Shown here in pieces: positions 9,515 through 25,800 of a stretch of 25,978 nt of DNA; positions within the stretch are counted from its first letter, which is position 1, and each line of letters opens with the position of its first letter. A model generated the notes under the pieces. It made no database searches. It saw nothing but the letters and a program-made list of their open reading frames with translations, and was not told where the DNA came from. The DNA is from a virus. The position numbers and the translations under genes are program-made. The stretch spans positions 1 to 25,978 of IMG/VR virus record IMGVR_UViG_3300048833_000700; one strand, written 5' to 3'.

Positions 9515-11054
9515 AGAGTTTTTCCATTTCCAGGAGGATCGGGGCGAAGTCATCGTCTGGCCATTGAGCCTCACTCCAGACATGGTAGGATTCCCTCTCT
9601 CCGGAGCGGATCTTGTTGAGCTCCGCCAGCAACTGGGCGTCCCCGGACTTCGTGGCAATGAACTGGCTGTAGGCCCGTGCGAAAAGCTCCTGGGGGGCTA
9701 CCCAATAGCCTTTCTTTCCTGCGCGGCACCTGGTCAGCAGCCGGGTGTATGTCTTGGAGCGCGTGATGGCACTCATGAGTGCAGCCAACTCCTTCTGCCC
9801 GGTGGAAGCATAAGGGTGCTCCATTGTCGGTGTGTGCAGCCCATGATTATCCAGCAGATGCGCCAGCTCATGCAGCGCGGCCCAGCCTGCATCCAGTGTT
9901 GAGGGTGAGATCCGGATCTGCGGCGCCGTGTTGCCGTCCGTCGTCAAGCGGTAGTCACCGCCCACTCCCGGCCCGGGCGAGGTGATGGAAACATCCGGCT
10001 TCGGCAAGACTCCGTCCGTATGCACTCCAGCCGCCACCTTGATCGCGCGCGTGGCCTCTTTGCGGATGGCTCGGTCGACCAGCCCGCCTGGCACGATCAC
10101 CACTTCCGTAAGGTCGGTGCCGTTCTGATTGGCGGCCGGTTGGTCGCGCGGCCGGAAGATAGGCCTCGCCACTTTGCCAGGCCTGCCTTGGCTTATCTCA
10201 TCCAGCGGCAACAGCCGGATCACATCCCCCTCGATTTCCACATCCCCCCGGAACTCATCCTCGATCACCCGCCGCCTAGATTCGGGGATCCCCTTCAGGC
10301 TTGCCTCCGCCCCCTGGTTGAAAGGCACCTCCGAGGGCGTCTGCACCTCACCGGGCTTCAGCAAGCCCAGTTCCAGGCATTCCTTGCGCCGCACATTCCG
10401 CGTCCCCATTCCACTGCCCCAGTCGAACGGCTTCCATGGCACTCCGAACCGGTTGATCTTCACCCAGATCTCGGCTGTTTTCAGCGCGAGCATCCGGCCT
10501 TCCGGATACTCGGACGGCCCCGGGTAAAACCGCCCGCCATTCGCCCGCCAGATCGCCGGCCAGTTCCGCCGTTCCATCCGGCTCTCCAGGCGCTTGAATT
10601 CCCACGCCGGCGTCGCCCGCAGAATATCCGGATCCATCGCCGTCTTCCACTGCGCGTAGCCCTCCGCCTGGGCCAGATTCATATCCCAGATCAAGCCCAG
10701 CCTCCTTTCCGATGTGAAATCCTGCAGCGTCCCCTCCTTGCCCGCCTCCGGCCGGTAGCCCGCCTTCTTGAACTCCTGGCGCATCTCGTCGATGAATCTC
10801 CGCCTGTCCATCGTCACCCCCTCCTTGCCATCCGCCAGTTTGCTCCGCTCCAGGGCGATGCGCTGCGCGAGCCTCCGGTGCATCTCCGCTGCCAGCTTCT
10901 CACATTCCAACCGCGCCGCCCAAAACGAACGCAGGCGGATCTCCGCGGGCACCAAGTCCCACTCCGCGGACGAGAGCACCGTTCCCATCGGCGTCCGCCG
11001 GGAAATGCTCTCCACCGCCTCATCGAGCGGCACACCTGTAGTGAAACCAATCAT
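9480..11054 (-). CDS. MuF-like minor head protein fused to an HExxH metallopeptidase
   Basis: A 524-residue two-part protein. Residues ~15-235 look like a Mu gpF/SPP1 gp7-type head morphogenesis region: LSSAEWDLVPAEIRLRSFWA, long basic helices, then FDWGSGMGTRN and a cysteine near 226. Residues ~310-475 hold a zinc-peptidase-like domain with H395-E396-L-A-H399 (WAALHELAHLLDNHG). E456 in PQELFARAYSQF is a plausible third ligand, as in gluzincins. MuF proteins with toxin or enzyme tails are known in other phages, where they may be packaged and ejected. The gene is displaced from its Mu position after the portal and lies after the gp36-like gene, together with its gpG-like partner. Peptidase activity is inferred from the motif only. 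Confidence 0.75.
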   Translation of the reverse strand: MIGFTTGVPLDEAVESISRRTPMGTVLSSAEWDLVPAEIRLRSFWAARLECEKLAAEMHRRLAQRIALERSKLADGKEGVTMDRRRFIDEMRQEFKKAGYRPEAGKEGTLQDFTSERRLGLIWDMNLAQAEGYAQWKTAMDPDILRATPAWEFKRLESRMERRNWPAIWRANGGRFYPGPSEYPEGRMLALKTAEIWVKINRFGVPWKPFDWGSGMGTRNVRRKECLELGLLKPGEVQTPSEVPFNQGAEASLKGIPESRRRVIEDEFRGDVEIEGDVIRLLPLDEISQGRPGKVARPIFRPRDQPAANQNGTDLTEVVIVPGGLVDRAIRKEATRAIKVAAGVHTDGVLPKPDVSITSPGPGVGGDYRLTTDGNTAPQIRISPSTLDAGWAALHELAHLLDNHGLHTPTMEHPYASTGQKELAALMSAITRSKTYTRLLTRCRAGKKGYWVAPQELFARAYSQFIATKSGDAQLLAELNKIRSGERESYHVWSEAQWPDDDFAPILLEMEKLFTDRGWIPLPQ

Positions 11055-20557: not shown

Positions 20558-20893
20558 CTACCCGCAGCGCAGCGGGCTTTCCGCCTCGCGCGCAGCCTTA
20601 TACTTCAGCACGCTTTCCGAGTCCAGCCGCAAGGCCGCGTTGCTCGCCCGCCCGTCCTTGCGCTTCACCCGCGCCCCCGGCTTGTACCCGTCGATCAATC
20701 CTTTCCGGTAGAGATCCGTCACCGTCCACTCGCTCACCCCCAAAATCTTCGCCGTCTGCTTCGCGCTCATGTGGGACAGCGGCCGCCGCGCCGTCACCGT
20801 CACCTTCCCAGGCCCCGCCGTCACCACCTCACTCTCCCAGATGCACAGGGTCAGCTGAACGGGCGTTGCGGGGGCAGTGCAGGTGGATTGCAT
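20558..20893 (-). CDS. HTH DNA-binding protein, excisionase/MerR-like
   Basis: A 111-residue protein. The first ~40 residues are variable and Thr/Val-rich. Residues ~42-75 contain SAKQTAKILGVSEWTVTDLY, then RKGLIDGYKPG, a helix-turn-helix with wing as in excisionase and helix_turn_helix_17-type proteins. The C-terminus is basic (RVKRKDGR) with a final dimer-like helix (VLKYKAAREAE). It sits between the lysogeny-side genes and the late operon, so it could activate late transcription, act as an excisionase, or tune the switch. The ATG at 20893 is preceded by GCTGCGGGC; a weak -10-like TTAAGC ends only a few bases upstream. Confidence 0.65.
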   Translation of the reverse strand: MQSTCTAPATPVQLTLCIWESEVVTAGPGKVTVTARRPLSHMSAKQTAKILGVSEWTVTDLYRKGLIDGYKPGARVKRKDGRASNAALRLDSESVLKYKAAREAESPLRCG

Positions 20894-20940
20894 GCCCGCA
20901 GCTTAACACAGCTTCCCGGAGCGTCCGGAGCGTGACACAA

Positions 20941-20967
20941 AAACCGTGTCACGCCGTGACACGGTTT
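20941..20967 (-). terminator. Odd-centred palindrome 1, second of two tandem terminators
   Basis: Thirteen-bp perfect arms (20941-20953 and 20955-20967; AAACCGTGTCACG and its complement) around one central C. On the minus strand the hairpin runs straight into TTTTTG, as an intrinsic terminator does. A further half-site CGTGACAC lies at 20931-20938, so protein binding is also possible. Confidence 0.55.
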
Positions 20968-20975
20968 CAGAAAAG

Positions 20976-21002
20976 CTGCCGTGCCACGGCGTGGCACGGC
21001 AG
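20976..21002 (-). terminator. Odd-centred palindrome 2, first of two tandem terminators
   Basis: Thirteen-bp perfect arms (20976-20988 and 20990-21002; CTGCCGTGCCACG and its complement) around one central G. It starts 6 nt after the stop of the membrane protein gene on the minus strand and is followed by CTTTTCT. Its core TGCCACG-G-CGTGGCA is identical to the palindrome inside the gene at 25317-25341. Confidence 0.6.
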
Positions 21003-21008
21003 GGACGA

Positions 21009-21254
21009 TCAGCGTATGCCGGTCTCGAATGTCTTGCGACGTTTCGGCCCCGGGCGCTTCGCCGCCGGCTTTTGATCGGCCGGCAGCAGACACAGCGCCA
21101 GCACAGCACCCAGCACGCCAAGGAGCGCACCTGCACCGAGGATTTTCCACCCATCCTTGCGCAGCCAGGCGGAGCCTCCAAACGCCATCAATGTGACTGG
21201 GATCATCTGCCATGCCCAAATGGCGAAATACAAAAGCAGGTCTGGATTTTTCAT
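21009..21254 (-). CDS. Small membrane protein downstream of the repressor
   Basis: An 81-residue protein with two or three membrane segments (LLLYFAIWAWQMIPVTLMAF; ILGAGALLGVLGAVLALCLL) and a basic cytoplasmic tail (KPAAKRPGPKRRK). The ATG at 21254 is preferred over an in-frame GTG at 21278, because the extra residues come from a T-rich stretch without a ribosome site. It follows the leftward RHH regulator by 46 nt and ends at tandem terminators, so the two probably form a lysogeny transcript. By that context it may be a superinfection-exclusion or other lysogenic membrane factor. Confidence 0.6.
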   Translation of the reverse strand: MKNPDLLLYFAIWAWQMIPVTLMAFGGSAWLRKDGWKILGAGALLGVLGAVLALCLLPADQKPAAKRPGPKRRKTFETGIR

Positions 21255-21300
21255 CGTGTTTTTTTGGGTTCGGGCCACGGCCCTTGAATGATGTTACTCG

Positions 21301-21561
21301 CTACGCTCGACGCTTCTTTCCTTCCTCAAGCGGCTTGAGCACCGTTTTCTTCGGCCGACCGCCTTTACCTGCACGATCCGGCGCGTGCATGAAATTCTCT
21401 GGCAGGTGTATCCGGCATTCCTTGGTCACATACAAAAACAGCACCTCCCTAAGAAACTGGGACCTGCTTTTACCGCCTCTTGCGCGGTCGATCGCCGCAA
21501 CGAATTCGGCATCCAAATGGACCCCTATTAAGGTTTGGCCGGTAGCGCGTTGGTTTGGCAT
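21301..21561 (-). CDS. Ribbon-helix-helix regulator (candidate lysogeny repressor)
   Basis: An 86-residue protein. Residues ~8-45 (GQTLIGVHLDAEFVAAIDRARGG, then KSRSQFLREVLFLYV) fit a ribbon-helix-helix fold: one strand that binds DNA as a dimer, then two helices. The C-terminus is very basic (GKGGRPKKTVLKPLEEGKKRR) and may add DNA contacts. It is transcribed leftward, divergent from a second RHH gene, with overlapping promoters between them. By analogy with Mu c/ner or P22 mnt/arc it is the better candidate for the lysogenic repressor, because it leads the lysogeny-side transcript. Confidence 0.75.
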   Translation of the reverse strand: MPNQRATGQTLIGVHLDAEFVAAIDRARGGKSRSQFLREVLFLYVTKECRIHLPENFMHAPDRAGKGGRPKKTVLKPLEEGKKRRA

Positions 21562-21573
21562 GGGCAGCCTTTT

Positions 21574-21640
21574 AACACCTTTTTAGAATGGCTCCAATTT
21601 TTTTCTTGTCAACTGGCTTAAACTCAATTAAACACCTTTT
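21574..21640. promoter_or_regulatory. Divergent promoter/operator region between two RHH genes
   Basis: A rightward -35 TTGTCA (21606-21611) with TAAACA at 21629-21634 (17-nt spacer), and a leftward perfect TTGACA (21612-21607) with a weak -10 17-19 nt away (~21582-21589), share the same bases. The 10-mer AACACCTTTT occurs at 21574-21583 (near the leftward -10/start) and at 21631-21640 (near the rightward -10/start), as direct repeats 57 nt apart. These are likely operators. A run of T's (21598-21604) lies between. The region is clearly lower in GC than its surroundings. Confidence 0.6.
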
Positions 21641-21655
21641 CAAGCAACCACTACC

Positions 21656-21841
21656 ATGTCCAATCCTCAAAAACGCACTCAAACCCGCGGGGCTGTCCAA
21701 AAGGCCGGCGCGACGTTTGTCGCAGCTTGGATCCCCGACGAGATCGTCGAGGCCCTTGATCGAGCTGTGCAACATCAAGACACCGACCGCTCGAAACTCA
21801 TTCGGAAGGCCCTTCGGTCGTTCCTTTCGAAATCCGCCTGA
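21656..21841 (+). CDS. Ribbon-helix-helix regulator (early, Ner/Cro-like role)
   Basis: A 61-residue protein. Residues ~14-58 (KAGATFVAAWIPDEIVEALD, RSKLIRKALRSFL) form a CopG/Arc-type ribbon-helix-helix unit with the usual xxSxLIRxALRxFL second helix. The N-terminal 12 residues are basic. It is the first gene of the rightward early operon and faces the other RHH gene across the shared promoter. The two proteins differ in sequence, so they would be rival regulators of one operator region, like Cro/Ner against repressor. Start context TACCATG, no Shine-Dalgarno sequence. Confidence 0.75.
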   Translation: MSNPQKRTQTRGAVQKAGATFVAAWIPDEIVEALDRAVQHQDTDRSKLIRKALRSFLSKSA

Positions 21842-21861: not shown

Positions 21862-22638
21862 ATGGACCCCATCACCGTCACTCCTCTGCAACAGCCACTA
21901 TTCGACCTCCTCACGCCGCACGCTCGCCGCGTCCTCTCCATCGCCGCTGAAATCGCTGCCGCCGAGTCGGCCTTCGGTGTCTCCTGCATCGCCTGCCATC
22001 ACCTCCTCGCCGCCCTGGTGCAGGACAATCACGGCGTCTTCGGCCTGCTGCTGGAACGCGCCGGCATCACCGAGGCCGCCATCCGAGAACTCCTCAACCC
22101 CAGTCCGGAGCCTCCTCAATCCCATAAAACGGAAACGGCCCCACCAACTCCAGCGCCACCAACTTCATCCAGTGATCGGATCTCCGGTTCCATAACTCTG
22201 TCAGCAGCCACACTTGGATGCGGGAAACACTCCATCCATCAGGCGGACCACCAAACGGATCTTCCCGCGATGCCGGTGGAAACAACTGCCCCGCAAAATC
22301 ATTTCCACACTGGCACCGAAGATAAAGGAAGTAGGCCATGGATGGAGAAAGACGCTGTAGATCAACTGTTCCGCAGCCTGCACGCTTGCATACCAGCTCC
22401 AGGCCCGCCCTCACCCGCCGTTCTTCCGCAAACAAGAACCTCACCAGCGGTTCAAACCCTGCCTGAATGTTCGGGCTCAACCGGGAAAGATACGGCAACG
22501 CCCTTTCCAGGGCACCGTGCGTCAGTCGTTGAAGGTTTTCTCCTGCTTCGTTCCATTCTGCTGGGGGGGTCATGCCCGCAGTGTGGCCGCCTCCACACCC
22601 AGGATCAAGCCCCCTCTTCCACCTCCGCTGCCCGCTAA
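21862..22638 (+). CDS. ClpN (Clp R domain) protein with suspect C-terminal extension
   Basis: The first ~78 residues match a Clp N-terminal repeat domain: LTPHARRVLSIAAEIAAAES, a HHLLAAL motif (HHLLAALVQDNHG) and VFGLLLERAGITEAAIREL. In hosts this domain loads substrates or adaptors onto ClpA/ClpC; a free version could compete for adaptors or bind phage or host proteins. Residues ~80-235 are Pro/Ser/Thr/His-rich with no fold sense and lie antisense to a plausible gene (22094-22573). The last ~20 residues return to CPQCGRLH-type sequence. The original product was probably shorter, and the frame was extended when that segment arrived. The ClpN call is good; the C-terminal extent is doubtful. 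Confidence 0.6.
   Translation: MDPITVTPLQQPLFDLLTPHARRVLSIAAEIAAAESAFGVSCIACHHLLAALVQDNHGVFGLLLERAGITEAAIRELLNPSPEPPQSHKTETAPPTPAPPTSSSDRISGSITLSAATLGCGKHSIHQADHQTDLPAMPVETTAPQNHFHTGTEDKGSRPWMEKDAVDQLFRSLHACIPAPGPPSPAVLPQTRTSPAVQTLPECSGSTGKDTATPFPGHRASVVEGFLLLRSILLGGSCPQCGRLHTQDQAPSSTSAAR
22094..22573 (-). CDS. Reverse-strand cargo gene, zinc-binding-like hypothetical protein
   Basis: A 159-residue protein read against the early operon. Unlike the plus frame across it, it has natural protein texture: hydrophobic helices (LYLRCQCGNDFAGQL, KLVALELVGPFPFYG) and six tryptophans. The paired motifs CKRAGCG and CQCGND suggest a zinc site. The start ATG at 22573 lies in CTGCGGGCATG, the same 11 nt as before the HTH gene at 20893. 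A possible TTGATC-17-CACACT lies close upstream. Base composition is lower in GC than adjacent genes. It is a likely moron expressed in the lysogen; its function is unknown. Confidence 0.5.
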   Translation of the reverse strand: MTPPAEWNEAGENLQRLTHGALERALPYLSRLSPNIQAGFEPLVRFLFAEERRVRAGLELVCKRAGCGTVDLQRLSPSMAYFLYLRCQCGNDFAGQLFPPASREDPFGGPPDGWSVSRIQVWLLTELWNRRSDHWMKLVALELVGPFPFYGIEEAPDWG

Positions 22639-22665
22639 TCCCCCAACCACCAACCCCACATCATC

Positions 22666-22899
22666 ATGAACACCACCACCACCACCACCCAACCCGCCGC
22701 CGATCTTAAATCGGCCGCACTCATCAAACTCCAGCAGGCCGCCGGGCTCATCATCTCTGCGCGGGATGATCTCTGCAACCTCGAAGGCCACGGTTATTGT
22801 CGGATTTACGAGCGCACCCTCAAACACGCGATCGCGGTATCTACCGAGGCCACCAATCTCCGGCACCTCGCCCCACCCACCGGACTCTTCACCGTCTAA
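22666..22899 (+). CDS. Small helical early protein, hypothetical
   Basis: A 77-residue protein with two helices (DLKSAALIKLQQAAGLIISA, YERTLKHAIAVSTEATNL). It opens with a Thr run coded by (ACC)6 at 22672-22689. No family is recognised. Conserved-looking polar residues (RDDLCNLEGHGYC) could form a metal or binding site. It lies 27 nt after the ClpN frame and 5 nt before the next gene, consistent with the early operon. Confidence 0.55.
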   Translation: MNTTTTTTQPAADLKSAALIKLQQAAGLIISARDDLCNLEGHGYCRIYERTLKHAIAVSTEATNLRHLAPPTGLFTV

Positions 22900-22904
22900 C
22901 AACC

Positions 22905-23183
22905 ATGCAACCCACCATCATCGCCCCCAAGCACGCCGCCGCCCGCGTCTTTCACGACCCGGTCACGAGCGAGGACCTCCCCATCATCATCATGATCGCC
23001 ACCGCCACAGCCCCCGCTCCCATGAAACCGCCACGCCTCTTCCGCCTGCTCCGCATCATCGAGCGCCTCAACCTCATCCATTGCCATCGCCGGCTCACCG
23101 GCCGCCGCACAGACCACCTCTACGCCCGCTCCCGCGCCATCACCCAAGCGTACCTCACCGCCGCCGCCGCCAGCCAGCCATGA
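22905..23183 (+). CDS. Small basic early protein with the ARVFHDPVTSED module
   Basis: A 92-residue protein. Residues 13-28 read ARVFHDPVTSEDLPII, coded by a 50-bp repeat also found in the gene at 24334. The rest is a strongly basic helical region (PRLFRLLRIIERLNLIHCHR, RRTDHLYARSRAITQAYL) that could bind nucleic acid. The ATG at 22905 follows the upstream stop by 5 nt; the longer frame upstream is a shadow. Its stop overlaps the start of the DnaA-like gene (ATGA). Function is unknown. Confidence 0.55.
   Translation: MQPTIIAPKHAAARVFHDPVTSEDLPIIIMIATATAPAPMKPPRLFRLLRIIERLNLIHCHRRLTGRRTDHLYARSRAITQAYLTAAAASQP
22939..22988 (+). repeat. 50-bp direct repeat, copy 1
   Basis: Matches 24521-24570 at 48 of 50 positions; the differences are two adjacent C-to-T changes. 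Both copies are in coding sequence and in the same reading frame, giving ARVFHDPVTSED(L/F)PII in each protein. Flanking sequences are unrelated. Confidence 0.85.
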
Positions 23184-23527
23184 GCCCGGTCCGCATCTCC
23201 TCACTCGCCCTCATCCGCCTCGTCATCCTCGCGGTGGAGGATGTGTTCCAGGTCGATCATCGGCATCTATTCAGTCCCAGTCGCAAGCCCATATTCTCCT
23301 GGCCTCGCCAGGTCGCCATGGTGGCTCTAATGGATCAGCTCGGGCTCTCATCCACTTCTGCCGCCAGAGCCTTCCGGCGCCGGGATCACGCCACCGCCCT
23401 CCATGCCAGGCGCGTCCTGCACCGCCGCGTCGCCTCATCCACCTATGATCGGGCAAAGATCCGCCAGTTACTCACCAAGCTCGCCGAGCTTCGCCGCATC
23501 CACTCCACCCTCAAAACCCATAACTGA
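23180..23527 (+). CDS. Free-standing DnaA domain IV-like DNA-binding protein
   Basis: A 115-residue protein. Residues ~10-85 align with the C-terminal DnaA-box-binding domain: AVEDVFQVDHRHLFSPSRKP, then WPRQVAMVALMDQLGLSS, then the signature region AARAFRRRDHATALHARRVL (DnaA: xxFggRDHsTVlhA). The AAA+ ATPase domain is absent, so it could bind DnaA boxes without forming a replication filament. It might block host initiation, recruit host factors to phage DNA, or regulate transcription. It starts by ATGA overlap and is followed after 5 nt by the sigma-like gene. Confidence 0.75.
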   Translation: MSPVRISSLALIRLVILAVEDVFQVDHRHLFSPSRKPIFSWPRQVAMVALMDQLGLSSTSAARAFRRRDHATALHARRVLHRRVASSTYDRAKIRQLLTKLAELRRIHSTLKTHN

Positions 23528-23532
23528 ACGCC

Positions 23533-23820
23533 ATGTCATCAGACCCCACAGACGAAGACGCGCTTGCCGCCAGCCTCGCGGATGCCGCCATCCGCCTGGT
23601 GGAGGAATCTCATCCTTTCGGCTCCCCCAAGTTCCGCCGCCGCATCGCCCGCCTCTACCTCCGCCAGCTCACCGGTTCAGAGAAACCTCCCGGCCGCATC
23701 ACCGAGGCCGCCGTCGCCAAGTCCATCGGCCTCACCAAGCAGCGCGCTTCGGAAATCAAGCACACCGCCCTCGCCAAGCTCTACCTCGCCATCCGCAATC
23801 GTCACCCAGACCTGTTCTAA
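23533..23820 (+). CDS. Sigma-70 region 4-like HTH protein
   Basis: A 95-residue protein. The C-terminal half (RITEAAVAKSIGLTKQRASE followed by IKHTALAKLYLAIRN) follows the sigma region 4 pattern: xTxxEIAxxxGLTxxRVxQIxxxALxKL. The N-terminal half (LADAAIRLVEESHPFGSPKFRRRIARLYLRQL) is helical and could hold an RNA-polymerase contact. Region 2 is absent, so it is not a full sigma factor. In phages, such a protein often controls late transcription. That would fit a late operon here without a visible standard promoter. It sits 5 nt after the DnaA-like gene. Confidence 0.65.
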   Translation: MSSDPTDEDALAASLADAAIRLVEESHPFGSPKFRRRIARLYLRQLTGSEKPPGRITEAAVAKSIGLTKQRASEIKHTALAKLYLAIRNRHPDLF

Positions 23821-23824
23821 TCCC

Positions 23825-23995
23825 ATGCAAACCATCCACCCCTTAGAAATCGTCCTGGTCGTCAGCGCCGCCCTGGCCATCGCCACCGTGTCCGTCCTGC
23901 TCACCGCCGCCTATTACCGCCAGCGCATCCACCGCGTCTATTCCGACGCCTGGCGCGCCGCCCGCGCCTTCTATCGCTCCAACCCTCCGGCCTGA
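23825..23995 (+). CDS. Short single-TM protein
   Basis: A 56-residue protein: a membrane segment (IVLVVSAALAIATVSVLLTAAYY, residues ~8-31) followed by a basic aromatic tail (RQRIHRVYSDAWRAARAFYR). It is likely an inner-membrane protein with a cytoplasmic amphipathic tail. The ATG at 23825 follows the sigma-like stop by 4 nt. It ends just before a structured intergenic element. Function is unknown; early single-TM phage proteins are often exclusion or inhibitor factors. Confidence 0.55.
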   Translation: MQTIHPLEIVLVVSAALAIATVSVLLTAAYYRQRIHRVYSDAWRAARAFYRSNPPA

Positions 23996-23996
23996 A

Positions 23997-24069
23997 CCCC
24001 TTCGGGGCGGATGGCCCGCACGGCAACGCCGGGCTCGGGCTCGATAACCTGCACCAAGCATCCGCCCCG
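23997..24069 (+). ncRNA. Structured intergenic element (two competing hairpins)
   Basis: An 11-bp perfect inverted repeat, CGGGGCGGATG (24003-24013) and CATCCGCCCCG (24059-24069), encloses 45 nt with inner stems (GCCCG 24014-24018 with CGGGC 24030-24034, or CGGC-AAC-GCCG at 24021-24031) and a GGGCTCGGGCTC repeat. A smaller hairpin CCCC-TTC-GGGG (23997-24007) overlaps the left arm, so the two forms exclude each other. It could be a processed RNA, an attenuator or a mobile repeat. It is too irregular to be a tRNA, and no terminator U-tract follows. Confidence 0.45.
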
Positions 24070-24080
24070 TCTCTCTCTCC

Positions 24081-24115
24081 CACTGCTCACTGCTCACTGA
24101 TCACTGCTCACTTCT
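24081..24115 (+). repeat. Heptad repeat array, CACTGAT type
   Basis: Five units in strict register: CACTGCT, CACTGCT, CACTGAT, CACTGCT, CACTTCT. It ends 7 nt before the ATG at 24123, so it forms the leader of that gene in place of a Shine-Dalgarno site. Confidence 0.75.
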
Positions 24116-24122
24116 TCATCCC

Positions 24123-24329
24123 ATGTCCGAAACCGCCACCACCCTCACCAAGATCCGCGAAGCCCGCGAAAACATCACCTACTGGAAACGCCAGAAAGCG
24201 CTGCGCACCGAACACACCGCCCGCGTGGAAGCCGGTGCCCGCGTGCTTCTCTGGGAGCAACAACTCCACGCCCACCAGTCCCGCCTCAACACCCTCATCG
24301 CCGCCAAAGCCCAACCCGCCACCGCCTGA
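24123..24329 (+). CDS. Small coiled-coil early protein, hypothetical
   Basis: A 68-residue, almost wholly helical protein (TTLTKIREARENITYWKRQK, VLLWEQQLHAHQSRLNTLIA) with no membrane segment. The heptad leucine/hydrophobic pattern suggests a dimeric coiled coil. No family is recognised. It is preceded by the structured element and a heptad DNA array, and followed after 4 nt by the next gene, so it probably starts a second translational block in the operon. Start context TCCCATG. Confidence 0.55.
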   Translation: MSETATTLTKIREARENITYWKRQKALRTEHTARVEAGARVLLWEQQLHAHQSRLNTLIAAKAQPATA

Positions 24330-24333
24330 TCCC

Positions 24334-24678
24334 ATGTTATATCTCATCACCATCCACTGGCAACGCCGCGTGTTAGAAGAAGGCCGCCCACCGTCCGGCA
24401 AATCCACCTACCCCACCGCCGCGCGCAACTACCCCACCGCCGTCTGCAAAGCCAAACTCAAATTCCAGCGCAAGTTCGGTGCCCACCTCACCATCACCAA
24501 AACCGAGGAGTTCCAGGACCCCGCCCGCGTCTTTCACGACCCGGTCACGAGCGAGGATTTCCCCATCATCGATTGCGGCTCAGGCCGAGACTTCGGCATC
24601 TGCCCTCGTTGCGGCCTCGGTCACGGCGCGGTCCTCATGATGGCCGGCCGCTCCCTCGTCCCTTCCCCTGAAAACTGA
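24334..24678 (+). CDS. Early protein with the ARVFHDPVTSED module and CxxC
   Basis: A 114-residue protein. Residues 1-60 are basic and beta-rich (MLYLITIHWQRRVLEEGR, AKLKFQRKFGAHLTIT). Residues 64-79 are ARVFHDPVTSEDFPII from the 50-bp repeat shared with the gene at 22905. The end contains GICPRCGLGHGA, a possible half zinc ribbon. Its stop codon lies within a heptad array. No family is recognised; the shared module in two otherwise unrelated proteins is its main feature. Confidence 0.55.
   Translation: MLYLITIHWQRRVLEEGRPPSGKSTYPTAARNYPTAVCKAKLKFQRKFGAHLTITKTEEFQDPARVFHDPVTSEDFPIIDCGSGRDFGICPRCGLGHGAVLMMAGRSLVPSPEN
24521..24570 (+). repeat. 50-bp direct repeat, copy 2
   Basis: Second copy of the repeat at 22939-22988, 48 of 50 identical and in the same frame. 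Distance between copies is about 1.58 kb, so recombination between them would delete the DnaA-like, sigma-like and two small genes. Confidence 0.85.
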
Positions 24679-24695
24679 ACACTGAACACTAGCAA
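24668..24695 (+). repeat. Heptad repeat array, CTGAACA type
   Basis: Four units in register: CTGAAAA, CTGAACA, CTGAACA, CTAGCAA. The second unit contains the stop codon (24676-24678) of the preceding gene. The array fills the gap before the gene at 24706. Confidence 0.75.
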
Positions 24696-24705
24696 ACTTT
24701 CCACC

Positions 24706-25800
24706 ATGACAAACCCCGCATTTACCGCCCTCACCAAACAACTTCAGGACCGCGCCTCCTGGCTCGTCAACGCCGGCGTCGAGGACACTCGCATGGGATG
24801 CAACGCCATGACCGGAACCGACGATGACATGGCCGTCCTCCGTGCCGCCATCGAAGCCGAAACATCCGGCGCGAACCGCGTCTCCCGCCTCGACATCATG
24901 CGGGCAAAGCTGCGGAAGTTCAGCGAGGCAGCCCGCGCTGAACTTCTTCTCCACCGAAATGCGGGCCCCACCAAACCCGAATCCCCCCTCGCCAAACGCG
25001 CCCGGGAACTCCGCGAGGCCCGCCACAACCCTCCCGCCCAGGTCGTCTCCAAAGAAGAGTTCAAAACCATCGCTACCGCCATCATCACCCGGGATGCCTC
25101 CGCCTCAGACGTCGAGATCGTTACCGAGTCCCAGGTCAAAACCGCCGACCTCCGCGCCTCCGCCCAGCGCATCAACGAGGCCCTCGAAACCATCCGCTCC
25201 CATGAGGATGCCATGATCGAGGCAACCCTGGAGCACCGCCTCTGCATCGGCCTCGAACTCGCCAAAGCCCAGGACGCTTTCGGCCTTTCGCGTGCCGCCG
25301 CCGGGGCCATCGGTGGAAGCATGCCACGGCGTGGCATGCTTGACGAAACCCCCGCCCCCATCACCGCAGATCCCGTGGGATTCTCCAACTGGCTGGCCAA
25401 GGAAATCCCCGATCTCAAGCGCGGTACCGCGCATAAATACGCCACTGCCTTCGCCGGTACCGGTCTCACCATTCAGGACGCCACCCCCGTCAAGATCCGG
25501 GACGTCGTCAAAAAACTCCGCCATGAGTTCGGCAAGGAAGGCAAGCCCATGCCCTGCCTGCAAGACTTCTACAAACGCGGCCGCATCCCACGCTCGGAAC
25601 TCGTCATCATCGGAGCAAAACCCATCACCTCCAAGCAGCTCCGGCTCGAAGACGCCCGGGAAATCTTCCACCTCTGGCAGGAAGCCTTCCACAAAGCCCT
25701 CAAGAAAGGCCACCTCGATCACCTGGACAGAAAAGGCCTGCTCGAACTCCAGGAATTCACCGCCACCGTCCGGGACCGCATCAAAGCCCGCCTCAAGTAA
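24706..25800 (+). CDS. DUF3102-like protein with in-frame palindrome insert
   Basis: A 364-residue, mainly helical protein. Residues ~155-250 resemble DUF3102: INEALETIRSHEDAMIEATL, GLELAKAQDAFG, then FSNWLAKEIPDLKRGTAHKY, the last being its typical HTH-like part. Between these two halves, residues ~204-212 (GSMPRRGML) are coded by a perfect palindrome at 25317-25341, so the domain seems split by a repeat insertion that kept the frame. The N-terminal ~110 residues are helical and of unknown role, and the C-terminus is basic. DUF3102 proteins are common near plasmid and phage replication or control genes. Start context CACCATG. Confidence 0.6.
   Translation: MTNPAFTALTKQLQDRASWLVNAGVEDTRMGCNAMTGTDDDMAVLRAAIEAETSGANRVSRLDIMRAKLRKFSEAARAELLLHRNAGPTKPESPLAKRARELREARHNPPAQVVSKEEFKTIATAIITRDASASDVEIVTESQVKTADLRASAQRINEALETIRSHEDAMIEATLEHRLCIGLELAKAQDAFGLSRAAAGAIGGSMPRRGMLDETPAPITADPVGFSNWLAKEIPDLKRGTAHKYATAFAGTGLTIQDATPVKIRDVVKKLRHEFGKEGKPMPCLQDFYKRGRIPRSELVIIGAKPITSKQLRLEDAREIFHLWQEAFHKALKKGHLDHLDRKGLLELQEFTATVRDRIKARLK
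25317..25341. repeat. Odd-centred palindrome inside a coding region
   Basis: Perfect 12-bp arms (25317-25328 and 25330-25341; AAGCATGCCACG and its complement) with a single central G. Its central TGCCACG-G-CGTGGCA equals that of the terminator-like palindrome at 20976-21002. It encodes part of the DUF3102-like protein in frame. Confidence 0.75.

Follow-up and report, generated by a model that had tools for sequence, protein, structure and literature searches.

The window analyzed here is a 25,978-bp fragment of an uncultivated virus (IMGVR_UViG_3300048833_000700; 62% GC), in which the late functions (terminase, portal, head protease, major head protein, endolysin and others) are encoded on the leftward strand. 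It also contains two divergently oriented genes for ribbon-helix-helix (RHH) proteins, here called RHH-L and RHH-R. The genes and features in and around this pair are as follows:

20976-21002, leftward strand: terminator-like hairpin with a 12-bp stem, nine GC pairs and a T-rich tail
21009-21278, leftward strand: hydrophobic 89-aa open reading frame (ORF) downstream of RHH-L
21301-21561, leftward strand: RHH-L, an 86-aa RHH protein with a basic GKGGRPKK tail
21562-21655: control region, the 94 bp between RHH-L and RHH-R, 38% GC vs. 62% for the contig
21656-21841, rightward strand: RHH-R, a 61-aa RHH protein that opens the rightward early operon
21862-25800, rightward strand: rightward early operon with a Clp_N protein, a sigma-r4-like protein and unknown proteins, running to the contig limit

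The description in an earlier note of two different, divergent RHH genes was borne out, as both proteins of the window pass the curated cut-off of Pfam RHH_1 (20.5 bits) and flank a 94-bp AT-rich gap. Homologs of RHH-L are present in 17 other loci, and the RHH-L family profile (A7) matched the RHH domain of NikR in the PDB with an E value of 2.8e-6. All 16 RHH-R members and 10 of the 15 RHH-L members matched RHH_1 at E ≤ 0.1. None of these 31 family proteins matched Pfam Arc (PF03869) at the same threshold and, therefore, the pair is not filed under the Arc/Mnt family. In Foldseek searches the top-ranked matches to the RHH-R model were mostly RHH proteins, with none below an E value of 0.15, while the RHH-L model had no significant match, probably because the RHH strand forms in the dimer only.

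The search for the same gene pair in relatives that had been proposed earlier was productive, as the divergent RHH-L/RHH-R pair is found in 18 distinct loci from uncultivated phages or prophages: the window, L015 (genome G003), L017, L018, L019, L020, L021, L023, L024, L025, L026, L027, L031, L034, L035, L040, L042, and L044 (the near-identical L022 was grouped with L024, and L032 and L033 with L031). G003 (IMGVR_UViG_3300012347_000602) has a portal protein 77% identical to that of the window and carries the divergent pair, with 57% and 61% identity to the RHH proteins of the window. Locus L019 belongs to a Puniceicoccaceae genome (Verrucomicrobiota). These homologs were reached with alignments as queries, of two members and then of five; scans of IMG/VR with a single RHH-L or RHH-R sequence produced no matches, and a tblastn search of 50,697 INPHARED phage records produced no match for either RHH protein or the transposase. 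RHH-R was detected in 2 of 388 sampled Verrucomicrobiota genomes and in a third genome from a sample of the order, and all three have the whole pair. The RHH/RHH module is real but, since RHH-R is so rare in the sampled Verrucomicrobiota genomes, infrequent among sequenced genomes. In the part of the literature that was covered, we found no account of an RHH pair like this one from Verrucomicrobiota or from transposable phages. Three loci with weak RHH-R matches (L036, L038, and L039) were excluded, as HTH proteins adjoin the match. In L029, RHH-R is present without RHH-L; the homolog is at 9977-10153 and diverges from a gene for a zinc-ribbon-like protein, and MuA was not detected at this locus.

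Of the 17 related loci, 14 have RHH-R followed, in the same orientation, by a gene for a MuA-like transposase. This gene lies 0.9-5.3 kb further on in the 13 distinct loci where a profile search detected it, and in L018, the fourteenth, a PHROG transposase is directly downstream. In most of these 14 loci the transposase is accompanied by a MuB-like ATPase, and a profile built from the transposase alignment hit the known structure of the Mu transposase (4fcy; E value of 5.8e-5). In G003, two products of the rightward operon, of 710 and 360 aa, match a PHROG transposase family and a DNA transposition protein family, respectively. The contigs of L027 and L040 stop before a transposase could appear, and in L044 the pair is present with no transposase within the 3 kb read. 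In this last locus (genome G589), a head-protein-like gene (281-1390, leftward strand) is directly after RHH-R, unlike the transposition operon elsewhere.

Based on the fact that the transposase follows RHH-R in 14 of 17 relatives, the region represents the repressor/early-operon control of Mu-like transposable phages, and we consider it likely that in the window we see the RHH/RHH control region of a B3/Mu-like transposable phage, that is, a repressor/early switch made of two RHH repressors. Regulatory genes that separate left and right arms are the B3-like organization of transposable prophages (PMC8705779). The window stops 4.1 kb past RHH-R with no recognized transposase inside it; from its homology to G003 the transposase is expected to lie beyond the contig limit, and the assignment of the window to the Mu-like phages would rest on the homology of its portal, endolysin and RHH pair to those of G003. 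Two proteins of the early operon deserve mention in their own right. The Clp_N-domain protein (21862-22638, rightward strand), directly after RHH-R, has no counterpart match in G003. The 364-aa protein (24706-25800, rightward strand), of unknown function and without a confident family match, is 47% identical over 243 residues to a G003 protein (L009:9249-10148), and an IMG/VR search with it returned no relatives.

RHH proteins are common as antitoxins and some RHH-R members weakly match antitoxin families, so that the two genes might be unrelated neighbors by chance, for instance antitoxin-like or accessory regulators. However, divergence and spacing of the pair are conserved across 18 loci, the relatives have transposition genes downstream of RHH-R, and neither gene in the window has a toxin family match beside it. 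The conservation of the pair largely refutes chance adjacency, which we regard as extremely improbable, and a toxin-antitoxin system was rejected, as there is no toxin and the pair is conserved with transposition genes.

On the left, RHH-L and the 89-aa ORF probably share one short transcript, and the hairpin at 20976-21002 lies between this unit and the lysis/late genes. The three elements together are consistent with a short lysogenic transcript, although terminator-like sites are not enriched in number (2 found vs. 2.0 expected from shuffles). Strong GC-rich palindromes (CGTGTCACGCCGTGACACG and GCCGTGCCACGGCGTGGCACGGC) are clustered at 20920-21002, just left of the 89-aa ORF; one of them resembles a terminator, and the second could likewise terminate transcription or serve as a binding site. 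An HTH_17/excisionase-like gene (20558-20893, leftward strand), with relatives in G003, G001, L020, L034, and L035, separates the RHH module from the lysis genes.

To describe the control region we compared 17 homologous intergenic regions, 68-94 bp in length. Its proposed elements in the window are as follows:

21569-21597, leftward strand: proposed leftward promoter, TTGGAG (21597-21592), 17-bp spacer, TAAAAG (21574-21569)
21572-21583, rightward strand: proposed left operator with the sequence TTAACACCTTTT, covering the leftward -10 and matching the right site at 21631-21640
21606-21612, both strands: TTGTCAA overlap of TTGTCA (21606-21611, rightward) and TTGACA (21612-21607, leftward)
21606-21634, rightward strand: proposed rightward early promoter, TTGTCA, 17-bp spacer, TAAACA
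21609-21638, rightward strand: proposed early operator, 10-bp direct repeats TCAACTGGCT, TAAACTCAAT, and TAAACACCTT over the spacer and -10

The TTG of the rightward -35 is invariant in all 17 regions, and the rightward promoter scores well over shuffles that ignore the relatedness of these regions (z = 3.2); the leftward promoter scores barely above them (z = 1.2). The arrangement CAA-N8-TTG, which represents two -35 elements back to back, is present in 12 of the 17 regions, with one more region having a 9-bp spacing; the chance expectation is a mean of 0.53 and a maximum of 4 regions in 1000 shuffle sets, relatedness again being ignored. No CAA-to-TTG spacing other than 8 bp was seen in more than two regions. 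Many of the leftward -35s reach, through a spacer of 16-18 bp, a TATAAA-like -10 that ends 5-8 bp before the start of RHH-L. We also observed across the 17 regions that in many phages only 5-9 bp separate the end of a predicted -10 from the start codon and, therefore, the mRNAs may be leaderless.

The earlier note had proposed that the two promoters exclude each other by sharing a single -35 region. The overlap of TTGACA and TTGTCA on the seven bases at 21606-21612 is real, and TTGACA is a perfect consensus hexamer for the leftward direction. However, 11% of shuffles of the window gap also give overlapping -35s (5/6 matches), and only 3 of the 17 homologous gaps have them (those of the window, L015, and L034). 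The leftward TTGACA has no good -10 at 17 bp, its only candidates being CATTCT after a 16-bp spacer and TCTAAA after a 19-bp spacer, and the conserved leftward -35 is located 8 bp from the rightward one. We therefore rejected the shared -35, which has a low probability in our estimation, and the overlap is likely incidental. What survives of the proposal is the exclusion itself, on the different basis of the conserved spacing: with -35s 8 bp apart, joint occupancy by two polymerases appears unlikely, and mutual exclusion is predicted because the footprint of RNA polymerase is too large for such an arrangement.

The control region is also rich in repeats. The sequence AACACCTTTT, previously noted near each -10/start, has exactly two copies in the window, at 21574 and 21631, and none of 100 shuffles contained two; a direct repeat of at least 10 within the gap arose in 1.6% of shuffles. 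The early-operator repeats of the window are conserved in L015. Across the family, direct repeats to the right of the TTG are enriched at periods of 10 (z = 3.6) and 11 (z = 5.7) relative to shuffles that ignore relatedness, other periods from 5 to 15 having z values of at most 1.6, and most phages favor either the 10-bp or the 11-bp period. Dyads are enriched in the early-promoter segment as well (z = 7.0, with shuffles that ignore common descent); the dyad is perfect over ten pairs in L034 and L042 and weak in the window (6/10). Repeats about one helical turn apart suit RHH dimers aligned on one face of the DNA, and tandem 10/11-bp repeats inside the early promoter are as expected of RHH operators. 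Left and right sites resemble each other more within one phage than across phages (permutation p = 0.0038), which would be the case if the same protein recognized both.

The pair, its conservation, the gene order, the promoter spacing and the repeats are all seen in the sequence, and from them we infer which protein acts at which site, that the promoters are mutually exclusive and that the pair has a role in lysogeny. The pair is probably the switch by which a Mu-like phage of Verrucomicrobiota stays dormant or replicates, made from a kind of protein seldom employed for this purpose, with the two RHH repressors taking the roles that the c repressor and ner have in Mu-like phages. RHH-L would head the short leftward unit, and RHH-R the rightward operon bearing the MuA-like transposase and MuB-like ATPase further down. 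The back-to-back -35s, about 8 bp apart, would leave no room for two RNA polymerases together. RHH dimers may bind at the early promoter, on the tandem 10/11-bp repeats that lie between its -35 and -10, and also at the counterpart site covering the leftward -10. RHH-L would keep the transposition operon off in the lysogen; after induction, RHH-R would build up, shut the leftward promoter and lastly its own. We accordingly propose RHH-L as the maintenance (c-like) repressor and RHH-R as a Ner/Cro/Arc-like early repressor, roles to which position, conservation and an HTH swap in a relative all point.

This swap was observed in G001, the closest relative by portal protein (81% identity), which matches the window up to the HTH_17 gene. 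Past that gene, and with one ORF between, G001 encodes an XRE/HTH_3 protein on the same strand (L014, at 26553-26645 on the leftward strand, truncated at the end of the contig) in the position that RHH-L takes in the window. An XRE protein in the slot of RHH-L is as expected under immunity-module exchange, and this suggests that such modules are exchanged. It also bears on whether the pair might be an auxiliary immunity module, with a separate repressor elsewhere holding lysogeny, in the way that P22 has mnt/arc as a supporting region in addition to c2 (PMC7549136). Some of the related records do encode small HTH_3 and MarR proteins. Against an auxiliary role, the pair stands directly at the head of the transposition operon, the XRE protein replaces RHH-L at the same position in the closest relative, and no Peptidase_S24 (LexA/CI-like) repressor was found in 12 related records, where several of the HTH_3 matches fall in the N-terminus of MuB and a few in small proteins. 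We consider an auxiliary module unlikely, and the two RHH proteins as the repressor/early switch remain our preferred reading, although RHH-L may not be the sole repressor given the small HTH proteins present in some relatives. The broader claim, that in a family of temperate transposable phages the primary lysis-lysogeny decision is run wholly by two different RHH proteins on shared tandem operators, one helical turn apart, between back-to-back promoters, without an HTH immunity repressor, we regard as evenly balanced.

Sequence comparison gives good support to a compact switch of two RHH proteins whose divergent promoters exclude each other: the pair recurs in 18 loci, stands at the head of a transposition operon and has a conserved promoter/operator architecture. 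The lysis-lysogeny switches studied to date mostly use helix-turn-helix repressors, and P22 arc/mnt, the RHH pair known from textbooks, has a supporting role. If our interpretation is correct, the conserved RHH/RHH pair that heads a transposition operon would have solved the same problem a second time and independently, in phages of a poorly studied phylum. Short tandem operators in helical phase would keep both the protein and the DNA components within reach of a complete quantitative test, and natural variants of operator specificity would be available from the 18 versions, in which the spacing is 10 bp in some and 11 bp in others. The earlier suggestion of a new type of switch holds only in part, as the arc/mnt pair of P22 immI, already named in the earlier note, is a functional parallel and the c/ner logic is shared with Mu and B3.

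Among known systems, P22 immI is one of the closest to the pair. The mnt and arc-ant genes of P22 are divergently arranged. Both systems have a pair of RHH repressors diverging around overlapping promoters, here in 18 loci, with the likeness in promoter layout being by comparison only. In P22, Arc regulates its own operon in lytic growth and Mnt acts in the lysogen (PMC7549136). However, the operon controlled in P22 encodes the antirepressor and here it is for transposition, with no Pfam or PHROGs match to an antirepressor (ant) among the five rightward genes in the window. The proteins described here also differ in matching Pfam RHH_1 rather than Arc, and the operators in looking like tandem 10/11-bp repeats. 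Other RHH proteins are more distant parallels: CopG, NikR, ParD, and AmrZ belong to the same fold family by profile (and for RHH-R also by model), but have another genomic role and are not phage switch proteins in a divergent pair. In SPbeta, the Arc-type RHH protein YosL has been proposed to act in the lysis-lysogeny circuit (PMC10516654), but it is a single RHH protein beside a separate master repressor, MrpR. In Mu, B3 and Fc02 the repressor and first early gene are on opposite strands, with promoters pC and pE, and overlapping promoters between divergent repressor and ner genes are a frequent feature of B3-like phages and others (PMC9936078). The c (repc)-ner arrangement of these transposable phages is similar to that described here in having a repressor opposite the first early gene, but the Fc02 repressor is a CI-like helix-turn-helix protein (PMC9936078), whereas here both proteins are RHH. 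By analogy, we propose that the RHH pair may be functionally a hybrid of the c-ner switch of Mu/B3 and the mnt/arc pair of P22.
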